Below are positions 4,003 through 47,403 of a DNA stretch of 51,090 nt, one piece after another. The position numbers and the translations under genes are program-made. The notes under the pieces are model-generated. The model ran no database searches, was not told the origin of the DNA, and was given only the letters and a program-made list of their open reading frames with translations. Each line of letters opens with the position of its first letter. Position 1 is the first letter of the stretch. This DNA comes from an uncultured Chitinophagaceae bacterium (GTDB taxonomy: Bacteria > Bacteroidota > Bacteroidia > Chitinophagales > Chitinophagaceae): contig CAISDV010000080.1 in assembly GCA_903884185.1 (NCBI GenBank), positions 1 to 51,090 on the forward strand, read 5' to 3'.

Positions 4003-4545
4003 TCACACGCAAACCTCCACCAATCCCTTCTTCCCCTTATAATCCCTCGCCGAACTATGTAAATATTCCTCTGGCTCATCAACGATCATAGCACGCACAG
4101 GATTATTATGTGTGTAGTTTATCTTTTGCCAGAAAATAGCATTCCAGCTTAATAAAACGGCATGATTACTGTCATCCCAGACATGATATACTTCAACATT
4201 GCTCCTGTATTTTCCATGGTAAGCAAAACGATATAATAACCAGTCTCTCCGGCTTTCTTTTTCATTTTGCATCCATGCCAGTATTTCTTTGGCTGTCCAT
4301 TTTTTGAAATCGCGGATAACATATGATAAATCTAGTTTTGGAGAAGATACAACAAGGTGCAGGTGATTACTCATCAGGCACCAGGCATAGATATTAAGCT
4401 CTTTTTCTTTTACGCAGAAATTCAGGGAATCTACAATGATCTGTTTGCATTCTTTACGGGTAAACACATCCACCCAATCAACAAGTGTGAATGTTAAGAA
4501 ATGCGGTGAATGTTGTTCTGTTATTTTGTAACGATCTCCTGACAT
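4003..4545 (-). CDS. REP-associated tyrosine transposase (Y1/RAYT family)
   Basis: 180-residue single-domain HUH nuclease of the transposase IS200-like (Y1_Tnp) fold. RAYTs cut and rejoin single-stranded DNA at REP palindromes using a tyrosine. The HUH pair is in HLHLVV (His61 and His63), the catalytic tyrosine is probably Tyr144 in KINYTHNNPVRA, and SSARDY near the C-terminus is also typical. It is flanked on both sides by two-hairpin GC-rich palindromes (3713-3970 and 4608-4750), the expected substrate class. The ATG at 4545 fits the usual N-terminal region of the family. The gene appears intact. Unlike IS200 elements, no transposon ends are evident beyond the repeats. Confidence 0.9.
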   Translation of the reverse strand: MSGDRYKITEQHSPHFLTFTLVDWVDVFTRKECKQIIVDSLNFCVKEKELNIYAWCLMSNHLHLVVSSPKLDLSYVIRDFKKWTAKEILAWMQNEKESRRDWLLYRFAYHGKYRSNVEVYHVWDDSNHAVLLSWNAIFWQKINYTHNNPVRAMIVDEPEEYLHSSARDYKGKKGLVEVCV

Positions 4546-46733: not shown

Positions 46734-46738
46734 AGCAG

Positions 46739-46840
46739 TGGTCTCGTCCAGAATCGAACTGGAATCTGGGGCTTCGGAAACCCCCGTCCGACCGGTCATC
46801 CGGGCGGGCTTATACTATCCTCGTCCAACTGATGTCAATC
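46739..46840 (-). pseudogene. Truncated tRNA-Arg copy carrying two GC-rich inserts (copy A)
   Basis: Bases 46736-46783 are identical to 47105-47152, the 3' half of the intact tRNA-Arg(CCG), at an exact 369-bp offset. A 26-bp insert (46784-46809, beginning CCGTCCGAC and ending CGGGCGGGC) then interrupts the anticodon arm. The D-stem segment TTATACTATCC (46810-46820) follows and is itself followed by a degenerate second insert (TCGTCCAACTGATGTC..., 46821-46841). The 5' end of the tRNA is missing, so this copy cannot be functional. The next 15 bases carry the D-arm in inverted orientation (GGATAGTAT at 46847-46855). Confidence 0.9.
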
Positions 46841-46854
46841 GAAAATGGATAGTA

Positions 46855-47100
46855 TTACTGAATCATCTTTTTGAGAAATCTTCTACCTGCTGCGGATTTA
46901 AAATATTTTTCCCGTGAAATGGCATCTTCTCTTGTTGTAAACGATTCCTTATAGACAACTTTAAAAGGAATATATGGCCGAATAGATTTGGTCATACCAG
47001 AGTTATGCTGCTTAATCCTTTCTTCGATATTTTCACAATGACCCTTGTAAAAGAAATCGTGACTGACACTTTTTAAAACATACGCACAAAACATAATCAC
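46855..47100 (-). CDS. GIY-YIG nuclease family protein
   Basis: 81 residues, the small UvrC/URI-type GIY-YIG domain. GIY-YIG element appears as AYVLKSVSHDFFYKG (about 6-20), with the conserved Arg in ERIKQHNSG, and Glu in SREKYFKSAAGRRFLKK. These small proteins are abundant in Bacteroidota; most have no known target. It lies exactly between an intact tRNA-Arg gene and a broken copy of the same tRNA, like a gene carried inside the tRNA repeat array. Its stop codon overlaps the inverted D-arm fragment. Confidence 0.85.
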   Translation of the reverse strand: MIMFCAYVLKSVSHDFFYKGHCENIEERIKQHNSGMTKSIRPYIPFKVVYKESFTTREDAISREKYFKSAAGRRFLKKMIQ

Positions 47101-47107
47101 TCATCAG

Positions 47108-47179
47108 TGGTCTCGTCCAGAATCGAACTGGAATCTGGGGCTTCGGAAACCCTTATACTATCCATTGTACTACGAGACC
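47108..47179 (-). tRNA. tRNA-Arg (anticodon CCG)
   Basis: 72 nucleotides folding as a cloverleaf: acceptor GGTCTCG/CGAGACC, D-arm GTAC-AATGGATA-GTAT, anticodon loop TTCCGAA (anticodon CCG, reads CGG), T-arm TCCAG-TTCGATT-CTGGA, discriminator A. The anticodon stem AGGGT/GCCCC has one A-C mismatch and a T-G pair. CCA is not encoded. The sequence upstream (47180 onward) is duplicated in the tandem repeat at 47164-47403. Confidence 0.95.
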
Positions 47180-47403
47180 TGAATCACAAATTTAATTGAA
47201 AGGCTTATGTTTAAGTAAATAGTTTACATCGGAAATTTATACTATCCCCGTCCGACTGGTATCATCCGGGCGGGCATTGTACTACGAGACCTGAATCACA
47301 AATTTAATTGAAAGGCTTATGTTTAAGTAAATAGTTTACACCGGAAGCTTATACTATCCCCGTCCGACTCGCATCATCCGGGCGGGCATTGTACTACGAG
47401 ACC
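47164..47403 (-). repeat. 112-bp tandem repeat made of tRNA-Arg 5' half plus leader, with inserts (copies B and C)
   Basis: ATTGTACTACGAGACC, the 5' end of the tRNA, occurs at 47164, 47276 and 47388, a period of exactly 112 bp. Copies B (47230-47291) and C (47342-47403) contain the tRNA D-arm TTATACTATCC, then a 28-bp insert (47248-47275 and 47360-47387; CCGTCCGACT...CATCCGGGCGGGC), then the tRNA 5' end. The spacer between units is the leader of the intact tRNA (GAATCACAAATTTAATTGAA and onward). The copies lack the T-arm and are not functional tRNAs. Confidence 0.92.

Follow-up and report, generated by a model that had tools for sequence, protein, structure and literature searches.

A recurring unit of tRNA gene and GIY-YIG nuclease gene in Bacteroidota, a candidate tRNA-specific selfish element

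The window analysed here, a stretch of 51,090 nucleotides from an uncultured Chitinophagaceae bacterium, contains an array in which a short GIY-YIG nuclease gene lies between an intact tRNA-Arg(CCG) gene and a broken copy of it, and this locus is one case of a recurring tRNA-specific architecture that is common in Bacteroidota and not a local accident of one array. A preliminary description of the window had suggested a small tRNA-targeting unit; its direction is borne out by the recurrent linkage to tRNA genes. Probably a small selfish element specific for one tRNA resides here, a homing-like GIY-YIG unit in which one functional tRNA is retained. Elements of this sort, living on tRNA genes, look undescribed, and a search of the open-access literature, judged from titles and the opening parts of abstracts, found no description of GIY-YIG genes at Bacteroidota tRNA genes, which is no proof of absence. 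If this reading is correct, many types of tRNA gene across a major phylum of bacteria carry a selfish unit reduced to about 370 bp and one protein. Such units would account for the pieces of tRNA and the tandem GIY-YIG genes seen in genomes of Bacteroidota, would make available a family of related nucleases that nature has sorted by tRNA, and would be a candidate origin of the short palindromes that enter protein genes exactly and in frame.

The tRNA-Arg(CCG) array and its nuclease gene

The sole tRNA found by ARAGORN in the window is tRNA-Arg(CCG) on the minus strand (47107-47179), which Rfam places at 47108-47179 (RF00005, 58 bits). Together with repeat comparison the two programs confirm one intact gene and three broken copies with GC-rich inserts, as first described, and 26-28-bp palindromes were located at the insert sites then named, the anticodon arm in copy A and the D-loop in copies A (degenerate), B and C. 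The features of the array are as follows.

46738-46848, minus: interrupted tRNA copy A, right-hand (sequence comparison)
46783-46808, minus: 26-bp palindrome in the anticodon arm of copy A (pattern match)
46820-46848, minus: degenerate D-loop palindrome of copy A (read by eye against copy B)
46844-46855, no strand: inverted D-arm fragment of 12 nt, overlapping the GIY-YIG stop codon (matches 47155-47166)
46855-47100, minus: GIY-YIG nuclease ORF, 81 codons, GTG start (Pfam PF01541, E 7.3e-12)
47107-47179, minus: intact tRNA-Arg(CCG) with wild-type D-loop (ARAGORN and Rfam)
47163-47386, minus: two tandem 112-bp units, which extend from the beginning of the intact tRNA across copies B and C (repeat comparison)
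47237-47291, minus: interrupted tRNA copy B, left-hand, with tRNA nt 1-17, palindrome and about 10 nt
47247-47274, minus: 28-bp palindrome in the D-loop of copy B, splitting the two G of a GG pair (pattern match)
47349-47403, minus: interrupted tRNA copy C, left-hand, with tRNA nt 1-17, palindrome and about 10 nt
47359-47386, minus: 28-bp palindrome in the D-loop of copy C (pattern match)

Copy A reads tRNA nt 28-73 (46738-46783), anticodon-arm palindrome, D-arm remnant and degenerate D-loop palindrome. The reported repeat of the 3' part of the tRNA is exact, 46736-46783 being identical to 47105-47152 at 48/48 nt with a start-to-start distance of 369. On the left-hand side the unit at 47163-47274 (112 nt) recurs at 47275-47386 with 96% identity; the 112-bp period given earlier is correct, and what recurs is less than the 5' half that had been proposed, as copies B and C hold nt 1-17 only. 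The GIY-YIG gene does lie inside the array, with the 12-nt match at its stop codon, and it starts 6 bp downstream of tRNA-Arg(CCG), its third codon being ATG. Exact matches to the palindrome pattern in the 2.95-Mb host genome are confined to the three palindromes at 46783-46808, 47247-47274 and 47359-47386 (0 for the reversed pattern as control). An assembly artefact was ruled out, error being unlikely because other assemblies show the same layout, including contigs of 4.6 to 8.4 Mb (L277, L147 and L115). The inserts do not belong to a known catalytic family of tRNA introns at the Rfam gathering threshold, the search of the window having matched the tRNA alone.

tRNA-targeted integrative elements are bounded on both sides by a direct repeat of the tRNA 3' end and encode an integrase. 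Similarly, the unit is flanked by a direct repeat of the 3' part of its tRNA, the 48/48 nt mentioned above, but its repeat spacing of 369 bp leaves no room for an integrase, and unlike these elements it has palindromes in the tRNA copies. No integrase was found between the 48-nt repeats of the window, where the GIY-YIG gene is the sole sizeable ORF lying wholly between them.

The host genome holds a second locus of this sort on contig C174 (L002), where tRNA-Arg(ACG) is followed by a GIY-YIG gene of 49% identity and the flanking tRNA copies carry a palindrome different from that of the window. In a further stretch (C29:1-3500, L347) tRNA-Arg(CCU) is followed at about 730-929 by a copy with a D-loop palindrome; no GIY-YIG gene lies within these 3.5 kb, and the place is likely a scar left when an element was lost. 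Elsewhere in the window, at 4252-4467 on the minus strand, lies a Y1 transposase-like gene (PF01797).

By sequence and by fold, the GIY-YIG domains of UPF0213 (1YWL, 1ZG2) and SLX1 are closest to the window's protein. An AlphaFold2 model of 80 residues has a pLDDT of 96, and Foldseek returned UPF0213 1ZG2, SLX1 and HIGLE as nearest folds and I-TevI as a weak match; the nearest solved structures by sequence are the two of UPF0213. Six residues (Y6, Y17, G19, R27, H31 and E63) are invariant across 16 diverse GIY-YIG proteins. Compared with seven relatives the ORF has a pN of 0.105-0.175 and a pS of 0.705-1.0, the latter near or at saturation, and it is under purifying selection. The protein amounts to a UPF0213/SLX1-like domain alone, no extension for DNA binding being visible, so that the fidelity of a lineage to its tRNA may rest on homology and not on recognition by the protein.

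Recurrence at tRNA genes of Bacteroidota

At a threshold of E 1e-6, 71 of 147 related genomes contain relatives of the GIY-YIG gene, frequently arranged in tandem, and a phylum-wide scan gave a match in 190 of 296 genomes. Relatives with the gene apart from tRNA genes, against which the earlier idea had been set, are not what is found. A tRNA gene lies within 250 bp at 90 of 109 loci from related genomes, representing 12 amino-acid types, at 72 of 80 Arg-type loci in species genomes (the best 80 of 155 confirmed) and at 26 of the 29 best-scoring loci of the 190 positive genomes in the phylum-wide scan, the nearest tRNA always being on the same strand as the GIY-YIG gene. Under the same distance criterion, 0 of 30 Y1-transposase loci and 0 of 27 dispersed-palindrome loci were tRNA-linked. 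Among the best 80 of 155, 71 of the 72 tRNA-linked loci are at tRNA-Arg (31 CCG, 40 CCU), and their hosts belong mostly to Chitinophagales, Cytophagales and Sphingobacteriales with a few Bacteroidales, Marinilabiliales and Flavobacteriales. The loci without a tRNA within this distance (19/109, 8/80 and 3/29) include some that stop at a contig edge. The set of 109 was composed of 31 loci, two duplicates having been removed, and 80 of the stronger places in the match listing, 2 of 111 being dropped for want of a BLAST match; the three sets overlap slightly, in that the places of L319 and L346 had been counted in the first set and L226 and L036 are one place. Tandem GIY-YIG arrays have periods of about 315-450 bp. 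Four to six tandem genes are seen in three single-contig genomes (L332 in G677, L115 in G084 and L147 in G055), and arrays of the same sort are known from the match listing for G732.

The second recurrent feature is the surplus of tRNA sequence. Once every tRNA called by ARAGORN has been masked, the GIY-YIG gene is still flanked by a further copy of its tRNA at 77 of 90 loci, as compared with 27 positives in 900 control tests with a tRNA of the wrong isotype. Of 27 GIY-less tRNA-Arg loci (26 CCG, one CCU), 26 are without an extra copy and one (L045) has two short pieces. Many copies are 5' or 3' fragments only, and for several other types of tRNA a hairpin stands in the copy where the anticodon arm would be. 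In the Arg-type loci (best 80 of 155) 84 interruptions were counted in 55 loci, not independent events because many share ancestry. They lie at tRNA position 17 in 50 cases, at 55 in 12, at 50, which is not in a loop, in 6, at 35-40 in 6 and elsewhere in 10, and 67 of the 84 inserts fold into a stem of at least 6 pairs. The insert of the array belongs to a repeat family that is found at the same tRNA site in other genera as well. Some genera differ in their position-17 palindrome, and nested forms occur, a pattern suggesting that this one site was hit repeatedly. At three loci (L294, L295 and L312) palindromes are nested in, or joined to, others at the D-loop site of tRNA copies. A strict rule of insertion between two G residues was considered and rejected; it is common at dispersed sites, as judged by eye, and fails at tRNA positions 55 and 38-40. 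At diagnostic positions the copies carry the tRNA variant of their own genome in 284 of 316 cases, the consensus base in 28 and another base in 4 (58 loci from the best 80 of 155), a match that probably reflects recent copying or gene conversion.

Moreover, one site can be found empty, occupied and scarred. An empty site had been predicted and exists, with conserved synteny of the left flank: at 11 control loci a gene that we take to be MarC-like is followed by tRNA-Arg and no GIY-YIG gene, 10 of them being without an extra copy and the eleventh, L045, running into N after a partial copy. In genus g29 the site is empty in G181, occupied in G028, G368 and G394 (left copy, intact tRNA, GIY-YIG gene, right copy), occupied without the left copy in G297, and reduced to left copy and intact tRNA without a GIY-YIG gene, a scar, in G337 and G417; no such locus was found in the g29 genome G438. 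The same GIY-less state is present in G190 and G302, and G030 and G401 may share it, their contigs stopping 427 and 123 bp past the tRNA. A search for copies with a D-loop palindrome gave 26 matches, of which 3 were judged chance, and a GIY-YIG gene lies in the stretch at 16 of the 20 genomes with a genuine copy. The g29 genomes also contain a short AT-rich repeat (L036:650-1310, query part 622-659, of the type TTTGAAAAT...TTTTCAAATT) with many matches per genome.

How could such a unit spread and be kept? It would consist of a tRNA gene, an adjoining GIY-YIG gene of about 80 codons and a second copy of the same tRNA, either nearly whole or its 3' part, with extra 5' tRNA pieces often lying upstream. 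The nuclease would break an unoccupied tRNA locus and repair would copy the unit in, the tRNA stretches serving as homology arms, and with one intact tRNA retained the host would survive. The palindromes in the surplus copies, mostly in the D-loop, would block the action of these copies as target or as tRNA. Recombination of the direct tRNA repeats could amplify the unit in tandem or delete the nuclease, and the GIY-less scar would be expected where the intact tRNA had recombined with the right-hand copy. DNA cutting, its target, transfer and the role of the palindromes in such a homing-like unit are what we infer, and the key question is whether the enzyme's target is the intact tRNA gene or the hairpins. 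The retained tRNA of the window is wild type, its D-loop (AATGGATA) being the same in the 27 GIY-less tRNA-Arg loci, so that its sparing by the enzyme is unexplained, which counts against the homing reading. Also weighing against it are the bare domain of the protein with its weak I-TevI match, the partly vertical descent within the Arg-type clade, the lack of phage or plasmid relatives at 1e-5, and the GIY-YIG loci with no tRNA within 250 bp. Accordingly, an element-borne, cleavage-resistant tRNA variant is not a general feature, and an altered anticodon stem in the tRNA was found in one relative (L064).

A parallel in phages is offered by the free-standing enzyme SegB, which the account in PMC13096335 presents as a GIY-YIG homing endonuclease driving the amplification of tRNA segments. 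As described there for T-even phages, a GIY-YIG gene adjoins tRNA genes and tRNA and nuclease are amplified in tandem, as in the unit, which also has the SegB-type features of a GIY-YIG domain with conserved active-site residues and of occupied and empty alleles at one site. Unlike SegB, the unit is chromosomal, its lineages follow the tRNA type, its tRNA copies are interrupted by hairpins, and it has no phage match at 1e-5. From this comparison the unit resembles SegB in setting, membership of the family being a candidate assignment. No relatives of the GIY-YIG gene were found at 1e-5 in 50,697 phage records (tblastn) or in 72,556 plasmid records, so that phage and plasmid carriers were dropped and no vehicle is seen; a kinship with phage enzymes too remote for this threshold may exist. 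According to the same account such an enzyme can alter tRNA gene dosage, and a chromosomal counterpart would make this testable in cellular evolution.

Palindromes beyond the tRNA loci

The palindrome P1 (CCCGNCCGGATG...TCGGNCGGG, 26-29 bp) occurs in 15 of 147 related genomes, the reversed control giving 0. Of its 38 copies outside the window 27 were examined, and 13 of these are inserted in a dominant ORF. Nine of the 13 are in sense orientation, are 27 nt long and share one frame, so that ARPDDPVGR, or a sequence close to it, is placed ahead of a glycine. Such in-frame 27-bp palindromes are found at L026 and L030 in G027 and also at L008-L010, L013 and L019-L021. The two genes of G027, presumably histidine kinases, are paralogues with exact 27-nt insertions, each providing the other's empty site. 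In-frame insertion of palindromes in protein genes is also what PMC10969869 describes for the Rickettsia palindromic elements. Those elements measure about 150 bp in that source, as compared with 26-28 bp for the palindromes here, which unlike them also lie in tRNA copies beside a nuclease gene.

It could be imagined that the GIY-YIG protein is a structure-specific nuclease of the SLX1/UPF0213 type which mobilises palindromes in the manner of REP/RAYT but with another enzyme, the tRNA loci being its home and the dispersed palindromes its cargo, with fidelity to a tRNA arising from homology and not from specificity of the protein. We regard this as unlikely. SLX1 is portrayed in PMC8287910 as a structure-specific nuclease subunit that is activated by SLX4, and it is, with UPF0213 1ZG2, among the nearest folds of the window's protein; the stems in 67 of the 84 inserts of Arg-type copies and the exact 27-bp insertions with mutual empty sites would also be expected. 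In addition, palindrome-bearing genomes are richer in GIY-YIG genes. Such genes are present in 12 of 15 P1 genomes versus 59 of 132 others and in 21 of 22 genomes with the palindrome P2 (CCTGCCTGCCGNCAGGCAGG) versus 50 of 125 others, and TCCCG hairpins average 12.9 (control 1.9) in the 71 GIY-positive genomes versus 3.8 (control 1.2) in the other 76. However, these are several uncorrected tests on related genomes, the hairpin difference is weaker within family f1 alone (p 0.035), and part of the counted P2 copies sit at the GIY-YIG loci themselves. Furthermore, G009 has 11 P1 copies and no GIY-YIG gene at E 1e-6, and the dispersed P1 sequences of G027 differ from those at its tRNA locus. A general enrichment of GC hairpins near GIY-YIG genes is weak, with 50 of 109 loci as compared with 7 of 27 controls, a modest excess.

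In REP/RAYT elements palindromes flank a Y1 transposase gene. What they have in common with the unit is a set of short GC palindromes scattered through the genome and a candidate nuclease to go with them, but the enzyme of the unit is of the GIY-YIG type. Among Y1 transposase (PF01797) loci from P1-bearing genomes, where 30 of 40 listed places had a locus, P1 was found at 0 of 30 and a P2-like match at one, so that a Y1 (RAYT) transposase was ruled out as the partner of P1, which is in favour of a palindrome-mobilising GIY-YIG enzyme. A more far-reaching proposal joins mobilisation to the homing-like unit, in that the tRNA-specific GIY-YIG units would form a new class of mobile elements that break the resident tRNA gene, make up for it with a functional copy of their own, tag the broken copies with hairpins and spread these hairpins across the genome, even in frame into protein genes. 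We put it forward tentatively and consider it rather doubtful as a whole.

Descent of the nuclease gene

If the unit is a tRNA-specific element of the homing-like kind, how do its lineages relate to tRNAs and hosts? The layout was found at tRNAs of 23 anticodon labels. A tree was built from 106 GIY-YIG proteins, 3 short ones being left out, and has few columns and many open forks; a clear tRNA label was available for 86 of its 106 rows. The anticodon label requires 35 changes on this tree, as compared with a mean of 67.0 and a minimum of 60 in 2000 shuffles, and 25 changes within family f1 (shuffled mean 48.0, minimum 43). For host family the number is 23 with a shuffled mean of 24.6, 108 of 2000 shuffles being as low, and for host genus 75 with a shuffled mean of 75.6. 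The GIY-YIG lineages track the tRNA anticodon and not the host family. Vertical descent at an old tRNA site would equally tie lineages to anticodons, and taxonomic order does leave a signal in the Arg-type clade (16 changes; shuffled mean 28.9, minimum 22), so that descent is partly vertical.

This vertical component, together with the insertion of palindromes elsewhere, would fit an old tRNA-side GIY-YIG gene that was passively duplicated in tandem, no active element being involved and the surplus copies being neutral pseudogenes that collected independent palindromes. Such a history is quite improbable, as it has to contend with the spread of the layout over so many anticodon labels, with copies that follow the local tRNA variant, with interruptions that cluster at position 17 and are not independent, with purifying selection on the ORF, and with empty, occupied and scar states at one site in one genus. 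Least of all do we favour, as very improbable, a system at the RNA level in which the protein would target the tRNA molecule and pseudo-tRNAs lengthened by a hairpin would be transcribed as decoys or antidotes: the anticodon-specific lineages and those copies with only the anticodon arm swapped for a hairpin would suit it, but many copies are mere 5' or 3' fragments, scar loci without the nuclease keep their pseudo-tRNA, and we know of no GIY-YIG RNase of a tRNA-acting kind.

A minor observation concerns the ends of some of these genes. At L094, L079 and L106 the GIY-YIG frames seem to enter the following tRNA gene, which gives a predicted protein with a tRNA-encoded tail.
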